Assembly: GCA_937922785.1 (NCBI GenBank)
Contig: CALAJQ010000029.1
Location: 1 to 64,000 of the forward strand
Source of the DNA: an uncultured Acidimicrobiales bacterium
GTDB taxonomy: Bacteria > Actinomycetota > Acidimicrobiia > Acidimicrobiales > SZUA-35
Reading direction: 5' to 3'
DNA length: 64,000 nt
Position numbers and translations under genes: made by a program. Positions 11,578 through 21,527 of the stretch are shown one piece after another; within the stretch, counting starts at the first letter, position 1, and each line of letters begins with the position of its first letter. Below the pieces are notes generated by a model. That model was not told the DNA's origin, searched no databases, and saw nothing but the letters and a program-made list of their open reading frames with translations.

Positions 11578-11967
11578 ATGGCTCTTTCCGATGAGAAGTA
11601 CCTAAGTCTGACTACCTTCAAGAAGGACGGCACCCCTAAGCCCACCCCAATCTGGATCGCCGACCTCGGCGACGGGACGATGGGGTTCACAACGAACCAA
11701 GATTCTTGGAAGGTCAAACGACTCAAGAACAACCCAAACGTCATGCTCCAGCCGTGCGATATGAAGGGTGAGATTGAAGAGGGAACAACGGCGGTCGAAG
11801 CCACGGCGACCTATGTAACAGGCGGCCCCGAGTTTGAAAAGGTCCGGGGACTGATTGACAAGAAGTACGGGTTCGCCGTGAAGGTGATCAAGGTTCTGAA
11901 CTCGGTACGAAGCATGCTAGGCAAAGGCGGCCAAAGTGATACCGCCATCATTATCACGCTTAAGTAG
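11578..11967 (+). CDS. PPOX-class F420-dependent oxidoreductase-like protein
   Basis: A 129-residue split-barrel flavin/F420-binding protein. The start LSDEKYLSLTTFKKDGTPKPTPIWIADLGDG and the NPNVMLQPCD strand match the small PPOX family close to mycobacterial Rv2061. Such proteins use F420H2 or flavin to reduce unknown substrates. The downstream DUF2461 gene starts 2 bp after the stop, so they form an operon. Confidence 0.75.
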   Translation: MALSDEKYLSLTTFKKDGTPKPTPIWIADLGDGTMGFTTNQDSWKVKRLKNNPNVMLQPCDMKGEIEEGTTAVEATATYVTGGPEFEKVRGLIDKKYGFAVKVIKVLNSVRSMLGKGGQSDTAIIITLK

Positions 11968-11969
11968 CC

Positions 11970-12641
11970 ATGGGTTTCGACGGATTTTCCAAAGAAGGTG
12001 CAGAGTTCCTGGCGGGACTAGGCAACAAGGACAAACCCTGGTTCGACGCAAACAGAAAGATCTATCTCGCCGAAGTGGCTGAGCCAGCAAAACGATTCGT
12101 TGAAGCGATGGGCCTACATCTCAACGAGAACATGTCACCAGACATCGTGGCTTTACCCAAGACCAACGGCTCGATCGCTCCAATCAACAACGATCTACGA
12201 TTCAGCCCGGACGCCTCTCCATACAAAGATCATCTGATGTTCCGGTTCTGGGAAGGCCCAACAAAGAAGACCGCTGCAACGCTGATGTTGCGCGTGCACC
12301 CAACCGACGGTGTAGGAATCGCAACTGGGATCGGCTTTGACGATGTCAAGCGGTGGCGCGAGCTGGTCGACTCCGACGCAGGCGCCGATCTCGACGCGGC
12401 GATCAAGAAACTTGTCAGTAGAACTGGCGCTGACGTAGTTGGTGAGGGCCTGAAGAAGGTCCCTAAGCCATATGACCCCGATCACCCACGTGGGGACCTC
12501 TTACGCCACAAGGGCCTTCAGGTCCGATGGATCCCAAAACGCAAAGCACCAATCAATTCGCCGAAGCTGGTTGATTGGTGCGGTGATGAGCTAGCTAAGG
12601 CCCAAGAGGTCCACAGCTGGCTAGTTGACCACCTGGTGTAA
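11970..12641 (+). CDS. DUF2461 family protein
   Basis: A 223-residue protein matching DUF2461 along its length: the start GFSKEGAEFLAGLGNKDKPWFDANRK, the RFSPDASPYKDHLMFRFW core and the PKPYDPDHPRGDLLRHKGL segment are the family's conserved blocks. It is soluble and its biochemical function is unknown. It follows the PPOX gene at 2 bp. It may have been annotated elsewhere as TIGR02453-type. Confidence 0.8.
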   Translation: MGFDGFSKEGAEFLAGLGNKDKPWFDANRKIYLAEVAEPAKRFVEAMGLHLNENMSPDIVALPKTNGSIAPINNDLRFSPDASPYKDHLMFRFWEGPTKKTAATLMLRVHPTDGVGIATGIGFDDVKRWRELVDSDAGADLDAAIKKLVSRTGADVVGEGLKKVPKPYDPDHPRGDLLRHKGLQVRWIPKRKAPINSPKLVDWCGDELAKAQEVHSWLVDHLV

Positions 12642-12683
12642 CCAGGCGTTCGTGTTGGTTTGTGTCTAGAGAATTTGTGAACT

Positions 12684-12732
12684 TACTCGCTGGCTGACGC
12701 CAGCTGTGACCTACTCGCTGGCTGACGCCAGC
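12684..12732. repeat. 21-bp direct repeat duplicating a gene's 3' end
   Basis: TACTCGCTGGCTGACGCCAGC occurs at 12684-12704 and 12712-12732. The second copy holds the last codons (ASASE) and stop of the 12711-12983 gene. The first copy, just past the stop, would encode the same LASASE-stop again. Each unit also folds as GCTGGC-TGAC-GCCAGC, so the transcript ends in two consecutive hairpins that could aid termination, although no T tract follows. Confidence 0.8.
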
Positions 12733-12983
12733 ATTGCCGCCATCGAAATACGATCGATCGCAGCTACGAATTCCTCCGCCTTGACAATCTGTCCGTGGCT
12801 GAAGTCAGGAAGCACTTCCTTGATTTCGTCTCTTACAACCGGAATGTCAGTTGCGTTCAGCGCGTCGAGGAGCCAGTCGGCACTTCTTGAGCGAGAGACA
12901 AAGTCTTCACCGTCGGCGGTTGCCCGGGCGGCGGTTAGAACATCTTGGATGTCTTCGGTACGGGTCTCTTTTGTTGCATTCAT
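12711..12983 (-). CDS. Small soluble protein, unknown
   Basis: A 90-residue acidic, mostly helical protein (MNATKETRTEDIQDVLTAAR...) with no cysteine, signal or membrane segment. The start is set by an AAGGAG Shine-Dalgarno site 9 bp before ATG 12983. A TTG nine bases upstream would leave no room for it. I recognise no family. It is divergent from the equally small basic gene at 13297, from which it is separated by 313 bp. Confidence 0.6.
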   Translation of the reverse strand: MNATKETRTEDIQDVLTAARATADGEDFVSRSRSADWLLDALNATDIPVVRDEIKEVLPDFSHGQIVKAEEFVAAIDRISMAAMLASASE

Positions 12984-13296
12984 ATCGAACAACTCCTTAT
13001 GAGTATGTAACTACTAACCACCCGACCATGGGAATGGTTCCCTAGGACAGAACTATTGAGTAACAGCACCCAAAGCTTGACACAAATCATTAACCACTAG
13101 TGCATCGGGTTCAGAACTCTGAGCAGGTAAAACGCAGGATTTATCTCCTGTTAATAATTCATCGACAGCTCTTTTCCTGTGCGGCGATGTGACCCAAGGC
13201 ATAGCTGATCTGTGTTCGAGGCGATGGAACGACCCTTGGCGAAGGTTCAAGCTGTAGTTGCTCAACTCAACCACACACGACGTGGAGGCATCAGAG
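12984..13296. other. Divergent intergenic region
   Basis: 313 bp with no supportable gene. It holds the Shine-Dalgarno sites of both flanking genes (AAGGAG for the left one, GGAGG at 13284-13288 for the right one), a short GGGAA-TGG-TTCCC hairpin (13030-13042) and a perfect -35-like TTGACA at 13077 with no convincing -10. It is noticeably more AT-rich than its surroundings. A long reverse frame across 13053-13487 is arginine-rich shadow coding and is not called. Confidence 0.5.
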
Positions 13297-13506
13297 ATGC
13301 TTACGACAACAACATCACGAGCCACCGAATCGGCCAGAATCTTAGGAACCAAGCGCCGCTGGCGACGAGCCAAACGGCTGGCAGCCCTTCTCGTGTCAGC
13401 AAGGCAGCGCCGGCGAGAACGGCGAGAGTTCCGAGTGCAGCCAACAGAGGCCGACCGCTTAGACAACGTGATCAAGGACGTATACAAGGGGTTCGGTCAG
13501 TTCTAA
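13297..13506 (+). CDS. Small basic protein, unknown
   Basis: A 69-residue protein with a very basic middle (TKRRWRRAKRLAALLVSARQRRRERREFR) and an amphipathic C-terminus (DRLDNVIKDVYKGFGQF). The start is decided by GGAGG 8 bp before ATG 13297. The Arg-rich helix could bind nucleic acid, which is inference from composition only. A tandem duplication begins at the stop codon. No family recognised. Confidence 0.5.
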   Translation: MLTTTTSRATESARILGTKRRWRRAKRLAALLVSARQRRRERREFRVQPTEADRLDNVIKDVYKGFGQF

Positions 13507-13542
13507 AACGCTCTGCCGGTCTAGAACGCTCTGCCGGTCTAG
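13507..13542. repeat. 18-bp exact tandem duplication
   Basis: AACGCTCTGCCGGTCTAG is present twice without a gap, directly after the TAA stop of the small basic gene. It is one of several short exact tandem duplications in this window. Confidence 0.85.
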
Positions 13543-13633
13543 ACAGTGGCCACCCATTCCCATCATGATTTTTTCATCGGCGGGTGTGGGCGTGACCTTG
13601 ACCCGTGCCTCAACAGCTAGATGAGCCCCTACC

Positions 13634-14863
13634 TTGGCGACTGTGTCCCTACCTCAAGTTTCTGATCGACGACTAGCCGCCAGGCTCACAAAGGACGCCT
13701 TGCGACAGGTCCGAGGCGGTCACCCTTGGGTTTTTGATGGTGCAATCAAGTCGATCTCTGACGGCGGCAGCCCGGGGGACCTCGCTGTCATCTTCGACGA
13801 CAACCGACGTTTTGTTGCCATTGGCCTGTTCGATCCAACTTCACCAATTCGGCTAAGAGTGCTGCATCAGGGCAAGCCTGTCCAAATTGATGCAGCGTTC
13901 TTTGCCGGCAGGATTTCAGCTGCGGTGGCTGCCCGAAATCAACTGGTCACAGATCCTGGCACAACCGCGTACCGCTTGGTAAACGGCGAGAACGACGGTC
14001 TGGGCGGGCTCATAATTGACCGCTATGAATCAGCGGCGGTAGTCAAGCTCTATTCAGCGGCCTGGTTCCCGCATCTGCAAGGTGTTATCGACGGTGTGGA
14101 GGCGCTTGACGGGATTGAATCAGTTGTGATCCGTCTAAGCCGTGAAGTCTCAGCCGGACAAACCTTCGGCCTTTCAGACGGAGATTCGTTGGCCGGCCCT
14201 GAGGTGCCAGAGATCGTCGAATTCCTAGAGCACGGTTTGACCTTTGGTGCTGACGTTCGGATTGGCCACAAGACCGGACACTTCCTCGACCAGCGGGACA
14301 ACCGGCAGCGGGTCCGGCAACTAAGCGCCGGCAAGAATGTGCTTGATGTCTTCTGCTGCACCGGTGGATTCTCGGTGTATGCCGCGGCCGGTGGAGCAAA
14401 GGCGGTAACCAGCATCGACGTCAGCGAGCCGGCGATGGAGTTCGCCACACAAAACATGATCCGTAACGCGGAGGTCACCTCTGCGACCCGACACCTAACG
14501 ATCGTCGACGATGCCTACCGGGCGCTCGCCCGACTGGCTGAGTCAGGCCAGACGTTTGATCTTGTCGTCGTCGACCCTCCGTCGTTCGCCCACTCGAACG
14601 ACCAAGTCAGACGGGCACAGAAGGCCTATCGCCGACTTGCGGAGGCCGCCTCAAAGGTTGTTTCTTCTGGCGGAGAACTCTTTCACGCATCTTGTTCGAA
14701 CCGAATCGACGAGAACATGTTCTATGAGTTGGTTGCCGACGGCGTTCGTGACGCCGGGCGAAAAGCCACTCAACTAGGGCGCTACGGCCACGCGCTGGAT
14801 CATCCTGTGACATTCCCGCAAGGCAACTATCTGAAGGCTGTGCATCACCAGCTTGCGCCGTAA
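13634..14863 (+). CDS. rlmI: PUA-domain rRNA cytosine methyltransferase, RlmI family
   Basis: A 409-residue SAM-dependent methyltransferase predicted to methylate a cytosine (C5) of 23S rRNA, as E. coli RlmI does at C1962. The N-terminal PUA domain covers about 10-90 (RQVRGGHPWVFDGAI), the central RlmI-like domain includes DRYES, and the Rossmann fold has VLDVFCCTGGFSVYA (about residue 236) and the DPPSF catalytic loop. The annotated start is TTG 13634. A GTG three codons later is equally possible. A strong terminator follows 145 bp downstream. The exact target base is inferred from the family. Confidence 0.85.
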   Translation: MATVSLPQVSDRRLAARLTKDALRQVRGGHPWVFDGAIKSISDGGSPGDLAVIFDDNRRFVAIGLFDPTSPIRLRVLHQGKPVQIDAAFFAGRISAAVAARNQLVTDPGTTAYRLVNGENDGLGGLIIDRYESAAVVKLYSAAWFPHLQGVIDGVEALDGIESVVIRLSREVSAGQTFGLSDGDSLAGPEVPEIVEFLEHGLTFGADVRIGHKTGHFLDQRDNRQRVRQLSAGKNVLDVFCCTGGFSVYAAAGGAKAVTSIDVSEPAMEFATQNMIRNAEVTSATRHLTIVDDAYRALARLAESGQTFDLVVVDPPSFAHSNDQVRRAQKAYRRLAEAASKVVSSGGELFHASCSNRIDENMFYELVADGVRDAGRKATQLGRYGHALDHPVTFPQGNYLKAVHHQLAP

Positions 14864-14945
14864 TCGCGTTTTAATCAGTTGACGCTAACCGGAAGTTGAG
14901 AAGAGCAATGATTTACAAAGATCACTCAGAACAACTGAATGCTGT

Positions 14946-15009
14946 GCTTCGGAAGGAGTTCGACTGCTAACAACGCGTTAGCAACATCCTCGAACTCTGT
15001 GTCCGAAGC
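14946..15009 (+). ncRNA. Three-tier stem-loop, candidate structured RNA
   Basis: Three stacked helices fold this stretch: GCTTCGGA (14946-14953) with TCCGAAGC (15002-15009), GAGTTCGA (14956-14963) with TCGAACTC (14990-14997), and TGCTAAC (14965-14971) with GTTAGCA (14977-14983) around a 5-nt loop. All 23 pairs are Watson-Crick. The stem runs straight into an intrinsic terminator whose left arm shares its last two bases. It could be a small RNA, the 3' end of the rlmI transcript, or an attenuator. No coding frame explains it, and I do not recognise a known RNA family. Confidence 0.55.
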
Positions 15010-15040
15010 CGCCTCCCACTGAACGGGAAGGCGGCTTTTC
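15008..15040 (+). terminator. Rho-independent terminator
   Basis: GCCGCCTCCC (15008-15017) pairs with GGGAAGGCGGC (15025-15035, one bulged A) around a 7-nt loop and is followed by TTTTC TT. It ends the rlmI and/or stem-loop RNA transcript and insulates the tRNA-Gln/HNH block. Confidence 0.85.
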
Positions 15041-15044
15041 TTAT

Positions 15045-15088
15045 GGGGTCAAGTCTCAAACATGACTAGCTCACAAAACTGTGGATAA
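15045..15088. repeat. Dispersed DnaA-box repeat, copy B (inverted)
   Basis: Reads GGGGTCAAGTCTCAAA (15045-15060), an 18-bp spacer, then CTGTGGATAA (15079-15088), the reverse complement of the unit at 1371-1415. It begins 5 bp after the terminator T tract. The spacer sequence differs from the other copies while its length is identical. Bases 15089-15264 hold nothing further that I can support. Confidence 0.8.
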
Positions 15089-15264
15089 CTAGCCCCTGAC
15101 TGACTCCCCTGATCCGAAGCGATCGCAAACAAATTCTACATAGTTGCAAGGTGCATGCCGGTTCAGGAACAGACCCCGAGGAGGTTCCGGCGAAGAGGTC
15201 AGCCTCGCAACGTTTAGTTCCAAGAGGAATATCAATACTCGAGTCCTTGCCACACCACTGCTAC

Positions 15265-15337
15265 ATCGGAATCGTCCAACTGGCTAGGACAGCGGGCTTT
15301 GAACCCGCAGATGAAGGTTCGAGTCCTTCTTCCGGTT
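15265..15337 (+). tRNA. tRNA-Gln (anticodon TTG)
   Basis: A 73-nt cloverleaf. The acceptor ATCGGAA pairs with TTCCGGT (one G-U), the D stem is GTCC/GGAC, the anticodon stem GCGGG/CCCGC has loop CTTTGAA (anticodon TTG), and the T arm is GAAGGTTCGAGTCCTTC. CCA is encoded at 15338-15340. It reads CAA and CAG. It lies 109 bp upstream of the HNH nuclease gene on the same strand, with no terminator seen between them. Confidence 0.92.
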
Positions 15338-15404
15338 CCACACCCGACAAACACAACCTCAACAACGCCGAGATACGGCGACCCGACCACCGAGCCCTAC
15401 ACAC

Positions 15405-15434
15405 GCGGCCTCCGTGGCCGGAGAACGGCAAGAA
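15405..15434 (+). promoter_or_regulatory. Leader element shared with rtcB, copy 1
   Basis: A 30-nt block, GCGGCCTCCGTGGCCGG followed by AGAACGGCAAGAA, that is identical in 29 of 30 positions to 17791-17820 just ahead of rtcB. Here it sits directly before the AAGGAGG ribosome site of the HNH gene. It contains a CGGCC-TCCGT-GGCCG hairpin. The TROVE gene leader holds a shorter relative (GCCGAACGGCAGGGG near 16100). This suggests a common post-transcriptional control of the three genes. Confidence 0.6.
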
Positions 15435-15448
15435 AGGAGGCGACTCAA

Positions 15449-15955
15449 ATGACAGTGCTATTGCTAAACGCCTCCTATGAACCGCTTGCCGTTGTCTCGT
15501 GGAAGCGAGCTATGACGTTGGTCCTGACCGGCCGCGCTGAAATGGTGGAACAAGACGGTTCCCGCGTTGTTCGTTCAGCGGGCGGAGTCGAGTTCCCACT
15601 ACCTGGCGTTGTCCGCCTAATGCAGATGGTCAGCTTTGCCTCAATGCGAGCCAAACGGTCACCCAACTACTCACGTGCCGGGCTAGTTGCCCGAGACAAC
15701 GGCGAGTGCCAGGTGGCCGGTTGTGAAAAGCCAGGCTCCACGGTTGACCACGTCATCCCTCGTTCGCGAGGTGGCGACAACTCCTGGGAAAACTGCGTGC
15801 TGATGTGTCTGAGTCACAATTCACGCAAGGGTGATCAATCACTTGAAGAGCTCGGCTGGACCCTAAAGCAGCGTCCGGTAGCGCCTCACGGGTTAATGGT
15901 TACTCTTCCGGTCGCTCGAAAAAGCGATTGGGCGCAGTGGGCTACTTCTGGTTAG
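15449..15955 (+). CDS. HNH endonuclease
   Basis: A 168-residue HNH-family nuclease. The start is fixed by AAGGAGG 8 bp before ATG 15449. The N-terminal half (MTVLLLNASYEPLAVVSWKRA...) is the domain usual in actinobacterial HNH proteins. The nuclease core includes DNGECQVAGC, the motif VDHVIPRSRGGDNSWENCVLMC, and LSHNSRKGD, with two cysteine pairs for a structural zinc. Stand-alone proteins of this type are common and their substrate is mostly unknown. Its leader shares a 30-nt element with rtcB, and the TROVE gene follows 169 bp downstream, so a link to the RNA-repair genes is plausible but unproven. Confidence 0.85.
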   Translation: MTVLLLNASYEPLAVVSWKRAMTLVLTGRAEMVEQDGSRVVRSAGGVEFPLPGVVRLMQMVSFASMRAKRSPNYSRAGLVARDNGECQVAGCEKPGSTVDHVIPRSRGGDNSWENCVLMCLSHNSRKGDQSLEELGWTLKQRPVAPHGLMVTLPVARKSDWAQWATSG

Positions 15956-16124
15956 GGCCTAACAGCCCGCTGTTTCGACACCGCTTCCCCGTGCACTGGT
16001 TCTCTGGCAACTCCCGAAAATTACAAATTCAATATTCAACCGATCACTTCGCACATCGATGTTTTGGCCGCAGGCCGAAACTCGGTTAGAGAGGCGAAGC
16101 CGAACGGCAGGGGCAAAAACGACA

Positions 16125-17729
16125 ATGGCAAAGTTCTCTGCGAAGAATGTTCGCACCAATCCAATTTCAGCGATCAAGACCTTGCGCACTCGCGCCCTGA
16201 CTCACGAGCGGGGACTCGGCTACGAGCCGAACCTCGAAACTGAGCTGTTCCTCATGGCCGCTACTTACATGGCGGGCGAGAACTCGTTCTACGAGTCGGC
16301 GTCAGCTCGCGAAGAGCGCTTCGTTGATCTCGTACATCAAGTGACGGCTGACAACCCAGACTTCATCGTTCGCTTTGCCCCATACCTGCGTAACGAACTG
16401 AAGATCCGTTCTGCATCAGTAATGCTGGCGGCTGAGTATGTGGCCGCTGGCGGCGAAGGTGGCCGAGCTGTTGTGAACTCTGTGCTTCAGCGTGGTGATG
16501 AGCCCGCCGAAATGCTGGGCTACTGGCAGTCCCGGTACGGACGTTCAATGAAGATGGCAGTCAAGCGAGGCATCGCTGACGCGGTCGTTCGTCTATACAA
16601 CGAACGTTCTGCTCTTCGATACGACGGCACGGGCCGTGGCATTCGAATGGCTGACGTAATCGAGCTAACCCACCCAAAGACGCGTGATGCACAGCAGAAC
16701 GCACTCTTCAAGTGGCTACTCGATCATCGTCACCACAACGATGCCGTGGCCGATCCACGCCTGCTGCCCGTATTGGCGGCAGCTAAGGCTCAAGCCGACG
16801 TTGCACCCGAAGCACGTCGTGAAGCTCTCCGTGAGAACGGCCCCGAAGCACTGGCAAAGGCCGGCGTTTCTTGGGAACGTCTCTCGGCTTGGCTTGGCGA
16901 TGGCATGGACGCTGAAGCGTGGGAATCAGTAATTCCCACGATGGGCGTCATGGCGTTGATTCGTAACCTGCGCAACTTCGACGAGCAAGGCGTAAGCCAA
17001 GCAGCGATTGATGTTGTAACAGATCGAATCACCCATGCTGCCTCGGTGGCACGGGCTCGAATCTTCCCGTACCAGGTGTGGGCTGCCTACAAGTACGCTC
17101 CGTCTGACACTTGGAAGACTGCGCTCGGTACGACTCTGCAACTTACTACTGCCAACGTGCCTCGACTTGATCGAACCCTTGTGGTTATCGACATGTCGGG
17201 CTCGATGCAGGCGCCGGTTGCAGGCAAGTCAAGGATGTCTCGAGTTGAGGTTGCGTCGCTAATGGCTTCGGTCACGGCGGCTCGCTCACCTAAGACTGAC
17301 GTTGTGATCTTCGGACACTCGAACAAGACAGTGAAGCTTCCGAAGGGAGCATCGGTGCTTGGAAACGTGGAACGGATCATGGCTCTGCTTGGTTCGGTTG
17401 GTCACGCAACTTATGGCCACACCGCGATTCGCGACCACTTCGACGCTCGTCGTCACGACCGAGTTGTGATGTTCACAGATGACCAGATGCAAGACGCTGG
17501 TCGCGTAAACATCGACAACGTCCCGGTCATTTACACAATCGATCTTGCTGGGTATCGACCTCGGTCAATGCCAACAGGATCAAAGGGTCGATACACCCTT
17601 GCCGGATTCTCCGACGCAACCTTCACTTTGATGGAAACATTGGAGTCAGGGCCGTTCGGCTTCGCCTCACTAACCGAGTTTCGGCCTAGCGGCCAAAACC
17701 TCGCAGCCGACGGAGACTGGCCGTTCTAA
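16125..17729 (+). CDS. rsr: TROVE-domain protein (Ro60/Rsr)
   Basis: Ro60 orthologue: a ring of HEAT-like repeats that binds misfolded or damaged RNA ends and, in bacteria such as Deinococcus and Salmonella, Y RNAs that tether it to PNPase. The 534 residues comprise the TROVE domain (about 1-340, starting NPISAIKTLRTRALTHERGLGYEPN) and a von Willebrand A domain whose MIDAS motif DMSGS begins near residue 356, with the later TDD loop. I chose ATG 16125 (MAKFSAKN). The frame is open to 16059, but the added residues are low complexity. It is followed by a structured segment and rtcB, the order seen in the Salmonella rsr-Y RNA-rtcBA locus. Confidence 0.92.
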   Translation: MAKFSAKNVRTNPISAIKTLRTRALTHERGLGYEPNLETELFLMAATYMAGENSFYESASAREERFVDLVHQVTADNPDFIVRFAPYLRNELKIRSASVMLAAEYVAAGGEGGRAVVNSVLQRGDEPAEMLGYWQSRYGRSMKMAVKRGIADAVVRLYNERSALRYDGTGRGIRMADVIELTHPKTRDAQQNALFKWLLDHRHHNDAVADPRLLPVLAAAKAQADVAPEARREALRENGPEALAKAGVSWERLSAWLGDGMDAEAWESVIPTMGVMALIRNLRNFDEQGVSQAAIDVVTDRITHAASVARARIFPYQVWAAYKYAPSDTWKTALGTTLQLTTANVPRLDRTLVVIDMSGSMQAPVAGKSRMSRVEVASLMASVTAARSPKTDVVIFGHSNKTVKLPKGASVLGNVERIMALLGSVGHATYGHTAIRDHFDARRHDRVVMFTDDQMQDAGRVNIDNVPVIYTIDLAGYRPRSMPTGSKGRYTLAGFSDATFTLMETLESGPFGFASLTEFRPSGQNLAADGDWPF

Positions 17730-17757
17730 CTATCAAGCAATAAAACAAAAACACCAA

Positions 17758-17815
17758 GCCCGTTTCCCGGCTACAGAGCCGGCCACGCAGGCGGCCTCCG
17801 TGGCCGGGGAACGGC
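17758..17815 (+). ncRNA. Three-way-junction RNA, candidate Y-RNA-like or rtcB leader
   Basis: Between the TROVE and rtcB genes the sequence tiles perfectly into three helices with no unpaired junction bases. P1 pairs 17758-17768 with 17806-17815 (one bulged C, one U-G). P2 is GGCT-acag-AGCC (17769-17780). P3 is GGCCACG (17781-17787) with CGTGGCC (17799-17805) around an 11-nt loop. An alternative 6-bp P2 and 9-bp P3 compete with P1, so switching is possible. In other bacteria this position holds Y RNAs. Identity as a Y RNA is inference; it may instead be a leader of rtcB, whose ATG is 10 nt downstream. Confidence 0.5.
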
Positions 17816-17820
17816 AAGAA
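17791..17820 (+). promoter_or_regulatory. Leader element shared with HNH gene, copy 2
   Basis: The second copy of the 30-nt block found at 15405-15434, differing by a single A/G. Here it forms the 3' half of the three-way junction (P3 loop, P3', P1') and ends 5 nt before the rtcB ATG. No independent Shine-Dalgarno site is visible, so folding of P1 would directly affect access to the start. Confidence 0.6.
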
Positions 17821-17825
17821 CTCTC

Positions 17826-19055
17826 ATGACTAACGAAAACGCAAACACACCGGTTCGAGACAACGATGTCCTTTCATGGGCGACTGACCTGGACCCGCAG
17901 ACTTTGGCCCAGGCTCATCGGACTGCCGCGCTAGACATCGTTCATAAGCCGTTAGCTCTAATGCCTGACGCTCACCTTGGCATCGGCGCAACCGTCGGTT
18001 CGGTTGTGGCCACCGAAGGTTCGATCATCCCCGCCGCGGTTGGCGTGGACATCGGTTGTGGCATGGTCGCTCAGAAGACAATCTTCACGCGAGATCAGGT
18101 CGATGCTCATCTTCCAAAGATTCATGACGGCATCCGCAAGGCTGTGCCGTCAGGTCAGCCAAAGTCGGGCAACCGACGGTCGGGTTCACACAAGGTCGGT
18201 GTTCGATCAAAGGCTTTGGATCGACTGGTTCGGGACGCGCCACATGTTGAGAGCGACAAGTTCAACTCGGGCAAGATCGCGGCTCAGTTCGGAACACTTG
18301 GTGGTGGAAACCACTTCGTTGAGCTGACCGTTGATGAAGACGATCGGGTTTGGATTGTCCTGCACTCGGGGTCACGCGGCCCTGGAAACTTGTTTGCCCA
18401 GCAGCACATCGGGCGAGCTCGAAACCAGATGAAGCGTGTTCTCGACAACCCACTGGAAGACCCGGACCTCGCTCACGTAGTTGAGGGAACCGATGAGTTC
18501 AAGGAGTACATCGAAGGCATGCTTTGGGCACAGGACTACGCGCTCGAAAACCGCGGCCAGATGATGATTGCAGTTGCCGGGGTCTTGGCGGAAGTCATGA
18601 CTGACGGCGCTGGTCACAAGTCTGGCGATGCTGTTACAGCGGGTCGCCAAATTCAGTGTCATCACAACTATGCGAGCTGTGAAGAGCATCACGGTGTTGA
18701 GATGTGGGTTACCCGTAAGGGCGCCATCGATGCATCGGAAGGTAAGTGGGGAGTCATTCCCGGTTCGATGGCGACAGGTTCGTTCATCGTGTCAGGACTG
18801 GGTAACCCCGACTCATATCGATCAGCATCACACGGCGCTGGTCGGCGATTGTCACGACGTGCTGCTCGCAAGCAATTGAGCACCAAGTCTTTGATTGAAG
18901 CAATGGACGGCATTGCCTGGAATGACGATGCTGACGCGCTGCTTGATGAGCACCCCGATGCGTACAAGGACATTGGTGAGGTGATGGACAACCAGGCGGA
19001 TCTCGTAAAGATCGAACACCGCCTCGAAACGATCCTGAACTACAAGGGCACATAA
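17826..19055 (+). CDS. rtcB: RNA-splicing ligase RtcB
   Basis: Joins 2',3'-cyclic phosphate (or 3'-phosphate) RNA ends to 5'-hydroxyl ends using GTP and Mn2+, as in repair of cleaved tRNA or rRNA. The 409 residues contain all key motifs: D75/C78 in GVDIGCGM, LGGGNHFVEL, HSGSRG, CHHNYA, IPGSMATGSFIVSG and the guanylylated H336 in SASHGAGRRLSRR. No archease gene or rtcA cyclase is adjacent. It follows the TROVE gene by 96 bp and was probably transcribed with it. Length and motif set fit the shorter bacterial RtcB subfamily. Confidence 0.95.
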   Translation: MTNENANTPVRDNDVLSWATDLDPQTLAQAHRTAALDIVHKPLALMPDAHLGIGATVGSVVATEGSIIPAAVGVDIGCGMVAQKTIFTRDQVDAHLPKIHDGIRKAVPSGQPKSGNRRSGSHKVGVRSKALDRLVRDAPHVESDKFNSGKIAAQFGTLGGGNHFVELTVDEDDRVWIVLHSGSRGPGNLFAQQHIGRARNQMKRVLDNPLEDPDLAHVVEGTDEFKEYIEGMLWAQDYALENRGQMMIAVAGVLAEVMTDGAGHKSGDAVTAGRQIQCHHNYASCEEHHGVEMWVTRKGAIDASEGKWGVIPGSMATGSFIVSGLGNPDSYRSASHGAGRRLSRRAARKQLSTKSLIEAMDGIAWNDDADALLDEHPDAYKDIGEVMDNQADLVKIEHRLETILNYKGT

Positions 19056-19057
19056 GC

Positions 19058-19567
19058 GTGAACTTCCCTCGTACCTTCGTTCGGTTGATGCTGGCCGTCT
19101 GTGTCGCAGCGAGTTGTTCGCAAAGCGCAGACGGCCAGTTAGACCCCGGCGTGTTGGCCAGCCTCGAAGAGCAATCGGTCAAAGTTACTGTCGATCGGTG
19201 GCAAGACGATGCGGGCCAGATCTTGCTTCGCGCAACCTTTGAGCCGACCGAATCGGGCCTACACCTTTACGATGTCGACCTACCTCCAACCGGTGTTCAG
19301 GGTGTCGGCCGCCCAACGCGACTTGCTGTCATCGCCGACCCAACAGCCACTCCAAATGCTGATTTGAAGCCTATGCCATTGTTGATCGACGCGTTTGAGG
19401 AACCTCTCAGCATCTATCCCGATAGCGCTGTGACTCTGGTTCTCAAGAGCCCGCTCGTTGAGGCCGATAACGGATCCATAGAAATTTCGATCACCTACAT
19501 GGCGTGCTACACCGACGGCGGCTGCAAGTTTCCCGTTGAGGACCGCCGCTTCCTAATCACTTGGTGA
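19058..19567 (+). CDS. Exported lipoprotein, DsbD N-terminal-domain-like
   Basis: A 169-residue protein with a signal peptide ending in a lipobox (VAASC, C20). The mature part is beta-rich. The C-terminal ITYMACYTDGGCKFPVEDRRFLI, with C150 and C156, resembles the YxxC...C motif of the nDsbD/DsbD-alpha fold that relays electrons to periplasmic thiol oxidoreductases. The GTG start lies 2 bp after the rtcB stop, so it is in the same operon. The assignment to the DsbD-alpha fold is by motif only. Confidence 0.6.
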   Translation: MNFPRTFVRLMLAVCVAASCSQSADGQLDPGVLASLEEQSVKVTVDRWQDDAGQILLRATFEPTESGLHLYDVDLPPTGVQGVGRPTRLAVIADPTATPNADLKPMPLLIDAFEEPLSIYPDSAVTLVLKSPLVEADNGSIEISITYMACYTDGGCKFPVEDRRFLITW

Positions 19568-19602
19568 CCAGCCACCACCAATCTCTTTGAAAGCACCCTC
19601 AC

Positions 19603-20208
19603 ATGAAACTCCCACGAATCAAGGCCGTCGTTACCGGGCTGGTACTTCTCTCAGGCGCATGCGCCGCCGAGTCAGAACCCGCCGCCGTCGCTACTACTGC
19701 GCAGGTAGAAACTACTGAAGCACCCACCACGACTACTGCGCCAACAACGACTCAAGCACCCACCACGACTGCTGCGCCGACAACAACCGAAGCTTCCACA
19801 ACGTCGGTCCCACCAAAGCTGTATGAGGTCGGAATCTATGATCCCGAACGCGACCCTCAGACTGATCTCGAAGCAGCACAATTACGCGCATCGACCGAAG
19901 GCAAACAAGTGATCTTGGAAGTTGGTGGTGACTGGTGTCCCGATTGTGTGAACCTTGTTGCCTTCTTGGAGGCCAATCCAGAGGTAAACGCACAACTTGC
20001 CGAACGTTTCGTGATGGTGAAAGTGAACCTCTCTGCTGAGAACGAAAACAAAGAATTTCTATCTGGCTATCCCGCCTTTGAATGGGTTCCGCACTTCTAC
20101 ATCGTCAATGCCGACGGGTCGTTAGCGGAGTCTTATGACACCCGCGGCCTCCAGGAGAATACGAAGTTCACGGTCGCCGCTTTCGATGCTTTCCTAGCGG
20201 GTCGCTAG
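19603..20208 (+). CDS. Thioredoxin-like lipoprotein
   Basis: A 201-residue protein. Signal peptide with lipobox LSGAC (C20), a Thr/Pro-rich spacer made of APTTT repeats (40-68), then a thioredoxin-fold domain with the active-site-like WCPDC at 111-115 and the cis-proline region VPHFYI. This is the DUF255/thioredoxin_7-like pattern of exported thiol-disulfide proteins. Placed directly after the DsbD-alpha-like lipoprotein, the two may form an extracytoplasmic reducing pair. No membrane electron carrier (CcdA/DsbD-beta) is nearby. Confidence 0.75.
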   Translation: MKLPRIKAVVTGLVLLSGACAAESEPAAVATTAQVETTEAPTTTTAPTTTQAPTTTAAPTTTEASTTSVPPKLYEVGIYDPERDPQTDLEAAQLRASTEGKQVILEVGGDWCPDCVNLVAFLEANPEVNAQLAERFVMVKVNLSAENENKEFLSGYPAFEWVPHFYIVNADGSLAESYDTRGLQENTKFTVAAFDAFLAGR

Positions 20209-20213
20209 CCACT

Positions 20214-20229
20214 TTTGAGACTTGACCGC
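20214..20229. repeat. Dispersed repeat, half copy D
   Basis: TTTGAGACTTGACCGC matches the second block of the DnaA-box repeat in 14 of 16 positions. The DnaA-box half is absent, since coding sequence of the thioredoxin-like gene occupies that position. It sits in the 29-bp gap between two convergent stop codons. Confidence 0.65.
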
Positions 20230-20237
20230 CTAGGCAG

Positions 20238-21527
20238 TTAGCTTGCTGCGGCGAAGCTTTCGTTGAGAATGCGGAAGCCTTCTTCGATGTCGGTCTCGGT
20301 CGCTACCAGCGGCACCAACACTCGGATGCAGTTGGAGTCAACGCCGGCGCCCATGATTATCAGCCCACGGGAAAAGGCCTCCTCGACGATCTTGGCAGTA
20401 GTTGCTGCGTCGGGCTTGCCGCTGCTGTCCACCACTTCAATTGCCTGCATAGGGCCGAGACCACGGACCTCTCCAATTGAAGGGTTCTTAGCTGCCAGGT
20501 CCTGCAGGCGTGCCATCATGCGCTCGCCCAGAGCTTTGGCCGAGTCTTGGAAGTCAGAATCGAGCACCTGGCCGATTGCGACTTTTGCTGCGGCGCAAGA
20601 AAGCGGATTGCCGCCATAAGTTCCGCCGATCCCACCCTTGTGGACCGAGTCCATGATCTCGGCCCTGCCAGTGACTCCAGAGATTGGAAGACCGCCACCC
20701 ATCGACTTGCCCCAGGTCATGAGGTCAGGCTCTATCCCGTAGTGGGAAATTGCCGATGGCATTCCGGTTCTGCCCATTCCCGACTGGACTTCATCAGCTA
20801 TCACCAAGATGCCGTGCTCAGCTGCGATCTCAGCGACCCGGGCTGGGTAGTCCTCAGGCATGGGCAAGAAGCCACCTTCGCCCTGAACTGGTTCAAAGAT
20901 GATTGCTGCCACATTGGTCGGATCAACCTGGTTCTTAAGAAGCCGATGCAGCCCGTCGATTGCGTCATCGCTGGAGATCCCACGGAACGGGTAAGGGCCC
21001 GTCGAGCGGTAAATCTCAGGAGCGAATGGTCCCATGCCCAGCTTGTAAGGGCGGACTTTTGCGGTGAGGGTCATGGTCAACAAAGTACGACCGTGGAATG
21101 CGTTGTCGAGACAGACAATGCCCTGACGCTTGGTGTAATAGCGTGCGATCTTCACTGCGTTTTCAACCGCTTCGGCACCCGAGTTCAGCAGTATGGCCTT
21201 CTTGTCGAAGTCGCCTGGATGACATTGGGCCAGCAGTCGGCATACGTCTACATAAGGCTCATATGAACTGAAGCTGAAGCACTGGTGCAAATAGTGGTCA
21301 AGCTGTTCCCTAACGGCTGCTACAACCTCAGGATTGGTATGACCGTGATTCGCTGTACCGATGCCACCGACGAAGTCGAGAAACTCTCGCCCATCAACAT
21401 CCCAGATTCTCGCCCCGAGGGCCCGTTCAACAAAGAAGGGCCGACCTGCTGTGCCTGAGGCAACCCAACGATCTCGATCGGCAGCAAGACGCTCGGTGTT
21501 GGGTAGAGGTGTGGCTTGTGTGTTCAT
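20238..21527 (-). CDS. gabT: 4-aminobutyrate aminotransferase-type class III transaminase
   Basis: A PLP-dependent class III aminotransferase of 429 residues. Landmarks are GGIGTANHGHTNPEVV (54-69), NSGAEAVENAVKIAR (115-129), D245 in IADEVQSGMGRTG and the PLP lysine K274 in TWGKSMGGGLP. Overall similarity is to GabT/PuuE, which convert 4-aminobutyrate and 2-oxoglutarate to succinate semialdehyde and glutamate; other omega-amino acids are possible substrates. I chose ATG 21527; the frame extends to 21614 across the promoter. A succinate-semialdehyde dehydrogenase is not nearby. An operator-like palindrome precedes the gene. Confidence 0.85.
   Translation of the reverse strand: MNTQATPLPNTERLAADRDRWVASGTAGRPFFVERALGARIWDVDGREFLDFVGGIGTANHGHTNPEVVAAVREQLDHYLHQCFSFSSYEPYVDVCRLLAQCHPGDFDKKAILLNSGAEAVENAVKIARYYTKRQGIVCLDNAFHGRTLLTMTLTAKVRPYKLGMGPFAPEIYRSTGPYPFRGISSDDAIDGLHRLLKNQVDPTNVAAIIFEPVQGEGGFLPMPEDYPARVAEIAAEHGILVIADEVQSGMGRTGMPSAISHYGIEPDLMTWGKSMGGGLPISGVTGRAEIMDSVHKGGIGGTYGGNPLSCAAAKVAIGQVLDSDFQDSAKALGERMMARLQDLAAKNPSIGEVRGLGPMQAIEVVDSSGKPDAATTAKIVEEAFSRGLIIMGAGVDSNCIRVLVPLVATETDIEEGFRILNESFAAAS

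Follow-up and report, generated by a model that had tools for sequence, protein, structure and literature searches.

An HNH, TROVE and RtcB gene cassette in an uncultured Acidimicrobiales bacterium as the probable remnant of a tRNA-supply and RNA-repair island

We describe a cassette of three protein genes in a 64,000 nucleotide stretch of DNA (the window hereafter, which is part of contig CALAJQ010000029.1, or C29) from an uncultured Acidimicrobiales bacterium, the host, whose 4.9 Mb assembly is rated 95.7% complete. The genes encode an HNH endonuclease, a TROVE-VWA protein of the Ro60/Rsr kind and an RtcB RNA ligase, all on the forward strand and after a tRNA-Gln(ttg) gene. We consider it probable (at roughly 0.7) that this locus is the surviving protein core of an island of the Acidimicrobiales that combines tRNA supply with RNA repair, the window having apparently descended from a fuller form by loss. 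An earlier note on the same DNA had recognised the three genes in this order, which is borne out by Pfam matches above their cut-offs and by intact open reading frames (ORFs), and had interpreted them as an RNA damage and repair cassette. The array context, the Y RNA remnant and the repeat insertions described below were not mentioned there.

Scanning genome contigs with a TROVE alignment gave 25 loci, on all of which ARAGORN and tblastn were run, and the 15 with a TROVE identity of at least 56% to the window (L159-L172 and L179) form the related set used here. These loci belong mostly to Acidimicrobiales (the record of L169 is titled Rhodobacteraceae), with L166 and L179 originating from the same genome, and L159 and L160 being 99% identical between HNH and TROVE. 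Raw ARAGORN counts were 5, 15, 4, 25, 22, 3 and 11 for L159-L165, 20, 1, 3, 4, 1, 11 and 3 for L166-L172, and 13 for L179, from which we dropped four calls that overlap Y RNAs (Met in L162, Ile in L167, Lys in L169 and Ala in L172) and a downstream Arg call on the opposite strand in L166. A same-strand tRNA is found upstream of TROVE in 14 of the 15 loci, and three or more in 12, with clusters reaching 24 tRNAs; the exception, L167, is a contig with only 394 bases 5' of TROVE, which begins at the edge of a Y RNA. As a scale for chance, the 46 tRNA matches of the 4.9 Mb host genome imply that a random 2.5 kb holds one about 2% of the time. The available text of PMC5966550 speaks of arrays at 20 or more clustered tRNA genes, a number attained in L162 (24), L163 (22) and a further genome of the order, G123 (25), while the window cassette, with its single tRNA, falls below it. 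The manA RNA motif (RF01745) is present, above its gathering score, inside the tRNA arrays of both L162 (2366-2563) and L163 (4455-4656).

The related TROVE genes divide into two subtypes, namely the window's own (7 loci, 68-72% identity) and a sister subtype (8 loci). At its fullest, the window subtype presents array, HNH, Y RNA, TROVE and RtcB in that order, with HNH between array and TROVE in five of the seven loci (L159-L163) and RtcB 3' of TROVE in three (L161, L162 and L163); the contigs of L159 and L160 stop about 1 kb past TROVE. Within the sister subtype, RtcB (50-53% identity) lies inside the array and is followed by TROVE in L165, L166, L171, L172 and L179, and the other three loci (L167, L168 and L170), in which RtcB was not seen, are contigs only 3-4 kb long. 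The HNH-TROVE-RtcB order, the conservation of which was at issue in the earlier note, recurs in genome G138 (locus L161) and, with further genes between TROVE and RtcB, in L162 and L163, but does not extend to other relatives in which HNH is missing. That note had also let its proposal depend on HNH being present in close relatives, and by this criterion HNH is not obligatory: at a tblastn threshold of 1e-6, HNH is absent from two of the seven loci of the same subtype (L164 and L169) and from all eight of the sister subtype, some of the latter being short contigs.

Between TROVE and RtcB, L162 encodes an ATP-type RNA ligase (PF09414 and PF21189, with a PHA02142 OB-fold) and the nucleotidyltransferase RlaP (PF10127) at 11579-13883, and L163 a GNAT protein; when the L162 ligase and RlaP were searched over the other loci by tblastn, the sole match was the broken RlaP of L097. 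The Y RNAs and the tRNA arrays, together with the RNA ligase and RlaP of one locus, provide a context that favours the proposed role in RNA damage and repair. The chromosomal nature of the site in L162 and L163 is indicated by their common downstream neighbours, a sigma factor and a pyridoxal phosphate (PLP) enzyme, and no integrase or transposase domain was seen among the ORFs scanned around them (10 of 23 and 10 of 22, respectively). Partial versions of the locus exist in G027, G070, G042 and G071, that of G027 consisting of four tRNAs, HNH, a frame-broken RlaP and RtcB, with no TROVE. TROVE is likewise lacking in G123, where the 25 tRNAs stand beside a remoter HNH (47%) and RtcB (50%). Genome G115 holds two copies of an array-RtcB-TROVE island, on contigs C146 and C182 (L062 and L063), and the TROVE match of the second copy is broken up into two pieces that lie in different frames.

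Bacterial Y RNAs possess a long basal stem together with a tRNA-like module of T and D arms, and one to three conserved RNAs with a basal stem and tRNA-like module are located just 5' of TROVE in the relatives; their binding by the Ro60-type protein is predicted. In type 1 (137-161 nt), a long basal stem is followed by a T-arm-like hairpin, a closed acceptor-like stem and, last, a D-arm-like hairpin, in effect a permuted tRNA in which the basal stem takes the place of the anticodon arm, and type 2 measures about 90-120 nt. RNAalifold gave 35 pairs for type 1 (13 aligned) and 25 for type 2 (12 aligned), and the proportion of paired cells (96.2% and 95.8%, respectively, compared to 30-48% in slid controls) benefits from the structures having been derived from these very alignments, a circumstance that puts slid versions at a disadvantage. 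Two-sided changes are present in 17 of the 35 type 1 pairs and 15 of the 25 type 2 pairs, and for both types the covariation score was reached by none of 500 shuffles; the D-arm helix is invariant, and consequently without covariation support. At gathering scores, Rfam reported no Y RNA family in nine loci, and the match of its YrlA family (RF02553) to the type 1 RNA of L163 (38.5 bits, E 4.5e-7) lies under the gathering score of 69.

With covariance models of type 2 (R1) and type 1 (R2), a clear Y RNA is found in 14 of the 15 related loci, L172 giving a weak match of 36.5 bits. Upstream of TROVE in loci outside the training set, the models match in Jiangella, Kineococcus, Nocardia (two), Micromonospora, Azohydromonas, an Actinobacteria bin, an Armatimonadetes bin and viral contigs, as well as in two phages (VanLee and LuckySocke), and further matches occur inside the phage Atuin array and on a plasmid of Rhodococcus. 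The viral contigs account for four loci with no tRNAs in the stretch, three of which have identical coordinates and several Y RNA matches each. Among TROVE loci of 38-45% identity, a match lies within about 1 kb upstream in seven of eight (none in L181). Weak matches of the type 1 model are unsafe, since adjacent tRNA pairs also score with it, at up to 43 bits in L097 and 47 bits in L165. Two annotated phage tRNAs, a tRNA-Arg of Gordonia phage VanLee (L203, 3698-3769) and a tRNA-Ser of LuckySocke (L204, 3771-3844), fall inside Y RNA model matches of 85.8 and 45.3 bits, respectively, and may be the tRNA-like modules of Y RNAs.

Against this background, what is left in the window is modest. The tRNA-Gln(ttg) gene (15265-15340, forward strand) is supernumerary, the host having other tRNA-Gln genes with anticodons ttg (C34:16173) and ctg (on C6), and it is probably the sole tRNA left of an array. 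Its identity to the tRNA-Gln(ttg) genes of arrays is 89% in L162, 84% in L160 and 80% in L163, whereas the host's own ttg gene shares only 60% with it and the two tRNA-Gln genes of the G123 array 48-50%. Over 5.5 kb, the type 2 model has its best match at 15929-16007 on the forward strand (24.0 bits, the runner-up reaching 10.2), where a Y RNA would be expected, and nowhere else in the host genome does the model match at E<=1 (E 0.039 for this match, with 150 of 2940 first-look candidates scored). Given that the lower stem is gone and that the stretch folds no better than shuffled sequences (z 0.4 and 1.1), we call it a truncated, putative Y RNA remnant of 79 nt. It overlaps HNH over the final 27 bases of that gene, as though the end of HNH had been joined by a deletion to the middle of a Y RNA. 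For type 1, the model gave eight host matches at E<=1, the best of which (36.2 bits) spans a tRNA-Asn/tRNA-Met pair and was rejected as a Y RNA candidate. No intact Y RNA was detected in the host genome by the two models. With one tRNA-Gln, a 79-nt Y RNA remnant and a repeat in TROVE, the window island looks eroded.

The protein genes are better preserved. The TROVE-VWA gene (16125-17729, 534 aa) matches PF05731 at 1.4e-13 (51.3 bits, cut-off 23); its longest frame runs from 16059, and we place the start at the ATG at 16125 because the relatives begin at the corresponding residue of the alignment. Its family membership is supported by matches of profile A1 to 9l5y, 9kop, 2nvo (Rsr) and 1yvp (Ro60), and all five rows of alignment A1 contain DxS(G/S)SM, in which we take DxSxS to be the metal-site motif of the VWA domain; PF25045, at 26.1 bits, remains slightly below its cut-off of 27.7. 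The protein is best described as Ro60-like and, judging by its score, is not an Rsr equivalog (NF041674; 40.7 bits where 900 are required), and indeed no NCBIfam equivalog cut-off is reached by HNH, TROVE or RtcB. The RtcB gene (17826-19055, 409 aa; PF01139, 4.8e-102) covers the domain in full length (positions 1-426 of 426), and its D-x-x-C, GGGNH, HSGSRG and SHGAGR stretches, presumably the metal and guanylylation motifs, align with those of the solved RtcB 4dwr. Differences from the loci compared are dominated by third codon positions, with 103, 70 and 281 at positions 1, 2 and 3 over 515 codons for TROVE (compared to L060), 36, 28 and 91 over 162 codons for HNH (L060), and 74, 43 and 212 over 395 codons for RtcB (L061). 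All three proteins still appear constrained. As had been remarked in the earlier note, RtcA is missing: its domain, PF01137, was not found in the host assembly, and matches were obtained in 5 of 14 control genomes.

The HNH gene (15449-15955, 168 aa) matches PF01844 at 1.4e-9, above the curated cut-off. Its matches among solved chains are mainly HNH domains of the IscB and Cas9 types, with a few other HNH nucleases, and on this basis it is not an RNA-repair enzyme by sequence; PADLOC gave three weak matches of Cas9-type or restriction-type HNH. To the earlier note it was an unexpected member of the cassette, a view we do not share, for according to the available part of PMC5966550 no protein gene is more widespread in mycobacterial tRNA arrays than that of HNH-type endonucleases, and relatives of the window HNH occur in plasmid arrays of Nostoc and Mycolicibacterium. 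We sampled 16 regions of about 8 kb each around HNH relatives (34-45% identity) in phage and plasmid records, chosen by hand and not at random, and found at least four tRNAs in seven (L194, L198, L200, L206, L207, L209 and L212), two in one (L196) and none in eight. The Nostoc plasmids have 21 and 20 tRNAs beside HNH, and the Mycolicibacterium plasmids 27 and 25; a Pseudarthrobacter plasmid has six, with a tRNA-Gln(ttg) about 120 nt before HNH. The HNH family as a whole is not bound to arrays, since half of the sampled regions have no tRNAs. Given its distant relatives in the Nostoc and Mycolicibacterium arrays, HNH is a known kind of companion of tRNA arrays, and it most likely serves their spread, reshuffling, mobility or maintenance, and not RNA repair.

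Dispersed repeats punctuate the cassette. Copies of a family with a core of about 30 nt and a GGCC..GGCC hairpin (family B; 52 matches at E<=1 in the host genome) lie on the forward strand immediately 5' of the HNH start (15399-15434) and 5' of RtcB (17785-17820), and the three family B clusters that we inspected each consist of units of 43-66 bases in tandem. A second family of about 52 nt (family A), at 18 host places at E<=0.01 (21 matches at E<=1), has one copy 5' of TROVE (16057-16108, forward strand) and an inverted one, on the reverse strand (17651-17703), in frame near the TROVE 3' end. This inverted copy coincides with 18 residues before the terminal DWPF that are absent from the four other aligned sequences. 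Palindromic elements inserted in frame are known from Rickettsia, and the copy in TROVE is similar. In 4 of its 18 places, family A has a tRNA 3' end 1-36 nt away. The direct repeat of 36 nt that precedes HNH and RtcB, and the inverted one on either side of TROVE, were each considered as features specific to the cassette and rejected, being members of these dispersed families with 52 and 21 host matches, respectively. A 14-base motif is found exactly at 1400, 15047 and 20214 in the window, two of the copies flanking the cassette in inverted orientation, and has four window matches with at most two mismatches, a number reached by none of 100 shuffles. The inverted pair (15042-15070 and 20204-20232) was rejected as the ends of a mobile element, in that the motif recurs at 1400 and elsewhere in the host, where its 13-base core is found in other loci.

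Other searches of the locus returned little. Besides the tRNA, Rfam over 14800-20300 gave just two weak matches (E > 2), promoter-like and terminator-like sites were not above chance, and PADLOC at 1e-5 had no model for TROVE or RtcB. Upstream of the cassette is an rRNA methyltransferase gene with relatives (49-55% identity) in 6 of the 12 other genomes searched.

The system is rare and patchy. Among 148 genomes of the order, the host's own included, TROVE is found at E<=1e-10 in five (the copy in G135 being a short fragment), RtcB in 40 and the wider HNH family in 124, and across 395 genomes of the class a TROVE profile search found nine at E<=1e-15, again with the host's own. HNH of at least 62% identity is present in five genomes of the order (G000, G145, G138, G070 and G027). 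In phages and plasmids, RtcB was matched in 599 and 98 records, respectively, always below 60% identity. In trees from which duplicate loci (L159, L161, L166 and L179) and pieces shorter than about 63% of the query (which removed the L063 TROVE) were excluded, the window TROVE belongs to a set of 16 rows (support 100/99) made up of the window, 14 bacterial rows and one viral contig, and the window RtcB and HNH each belong to a subclade of eight rows (both 100/100). A solitary RtcB from the host's own family (L099, 99/95) branches as sister to that of the window.

Could the gene order be a chance adjacency of unrelated genes? The commonness of the wider HNH family and of RtcB in the order would make such encounters easier, yet TROVE and the close HNH, each in only 5 of 148 genomes, are side by side in G000, G138 and G145, and the recurrence of the order in L161, L162 and L163 contradicts this explanation, to which we attach almost no weight. 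It is a better, though still unlikely, proposition that the three genes form a self-standing and functional RNA quality-control operon resembling rsr-yrl-rtcBA of Salmonella, with an incidental tRNA neighbour. The intact ORFs, the dominance of third-position differences and a TROVE end branch no longer than that of G138 (0.22 compared to 0.24, G138 having four tRNAs) all accord with present function, but the tRNA context in 14 of 15 relatives counts against it, the window tRNA is array-like and redundant, and neither RtcA nor an intact Y RNA turned up in the host. The reduced array and Y RNA, the repeat insertions, and the partial versions in the four genomes named above could also be taken to mean that the island is decaying and has no present function, its ORFs being open merely because decay is recent. 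The TROVE branch and the codon-position differences speak against such decay, albeit neither dates the loss, and we regard it as improbable.

Several observations weigh against the window being the core of such an island, and temper our confidence in it. The full gene set is only partly regular, because RtcB occurs within or beyond the tRNA cluster in 8 of the 15 related loci, and HNH is present in 5. L164 and L169 have tRNAs and TROVE, while RtcB was not found within 9.5 and 6.8 kb downstream, respectively, and G135 has a TROVE fragment only, with no tRNA in 16 kb. The parts can evidently act alone, given that RtcB of the same clade occurs without tRNA, HNH or TROVE within 17 kb (L098 and L099), and HNH without TROVE or RtcB (L100, where the contig ends about 0.6 kb upstream). 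Ro60 itself needs no array, since the remoter TROVE genes (38-45% identity) have Y RNAs and no tRNA array in any of eight loci (0-1 ARAGORN call each; three of the eight contigs start 2-4 kb upstream). The 24-bit remnant scores barely above a match to a tRNA pair (20.5 bits, L161). Furthermore, the TROVE, RtcB and HNH trees are too poorly resolved within their sets to prove joint descent, and the HNHs from the Nostoc and Mycolicibacterium arrays do not cluster with that of the window, so that kinship of HNH through a common array is unsupported. Finally, the system as a whole may not work in the window, because there is neither an array nor a foldable Y RNA.

Both halves of the island are already known separately, as Ro60-Y RNA-RtcB on the one hand and HNH-tRNA array on the other. 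As described in the available parts of PMC5966550, PMC12803027, PMC6582537 and PMC9569102, mycobacterial, plasmid and phage tRNA arrays are dense clusters that cover most amino acids, with embedded HNH genes and a patchy distribution. These features are common to the loci of the relatives, whose arrays add TROVE, Y RNAs and often RtcB, and of which the window keeps one tRNA; the main text of those four papers mentions neither RtcB nor TROVE or Ro60. The rsr-yrlBA-rtcBA locus of Salmonella (PMC7790460, in the part available) likewise unites a Ro60-type protein, Y RNA and RtcB, whereas in the window genome no RtcA or intact Y RNA was found, and HNH and an array-like tRNA are present instead. In Anabaena, a 26-tRNA trn operon, rtcB and the HNH gene all8564 are repressed by TrcR and raised under translational stress, as far as the accessible text of PMC10272220 goes. 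The tRNA operon, rtcB and HNH gene are features in common with the loci reported here, but rtcB is a separate chromosomal gene there, and TROVE and Ro60 do not appear in the main text of that paper. Jumbo phages with tRNAs, RtcB, TROVE and RlaP have been presented as carrying RNA-repair systems (PMC7824862, available part), and a Listeria phage has an Rsr-like gene and candidate Y RNAs located 3' of its tRNA genes (PMC12282133, available part). Arthrobacter phage Atuin (L202) and Streptomyces phage LuckySocke (L204) resemble these islands in having a Ro-like gene and Y RNA matches among 23 and 16 ARAGORN tRNAs, respectively, in the stretches examined, and differ in that their TROVE proteins (34-37% identity) fall outside the window's set of 16 rows, grouping with Streptomyces scabiei, and that tblastn detected no RtcB or HNH in these stretches; an HNH relative of Atuin is situated about 19 kb from the Ro-like gene, next to two tRNAs. 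We found no description of array, TROVE, Y RNA and RtcB together in bacterial chromosomes in the literature consulted, which did not include most subscription papers. Parts of this union may be contained in the survey of RNA repair systems that Burroughs and Aravind published in 2016.

If the island interpretation is correct, a plausible course of events can be outlined. During phage attack or toxin activation, an anticodon nuclease or similar RNase would cut tRNAs, for which the array would provide variant replacements, and TROVE with its Y RNA would capture or sort damaged tRNA, the Y RNA serving as a tRNA mimic in which the presumed TROVE-binding stem replaces the anticodon arm. RtcB would then seal the 2',3'-cyclic-phosphate and 5'-OH ends. 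RtcA is dispensable for RtcB if cuts leave 2',3'-cyclic phosphates. At present the window proteins may work on host tRNAs with no Y RNA involved, or else the island may be on its way out. More speculatively, and at somewhat less than even odds, Ro60 and tRNA-mimicking Y RNAs could be standing parts of chromosomal islands directed against anticodon nucleases, in which cut tRNAs are replaced from the array, Y RNAs serve as uncuttable tRNA decoys and scaffolds (because the TROVE-binding stem replaces the anticodon arm), and whatever else is damaged is restored by RtcB, RNA ligase and RlaP.

The loci described here contribute two forms of new Y RNA sequences that show good covariation, and bring together two open questions, namely the purpose of tRNA arrays and the role of bacterial Ro60 and Y RNAs. 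Should array, Y RNA, TROVE and RNA ligases form one unit, damaged tRNA would be what bacterial Ro60 acts on, and if the islands are indeed directed against anticodon nucleases, this would suggest that bacterial Y RNAs arose from, or are fed by, the tRNAs of arrays.

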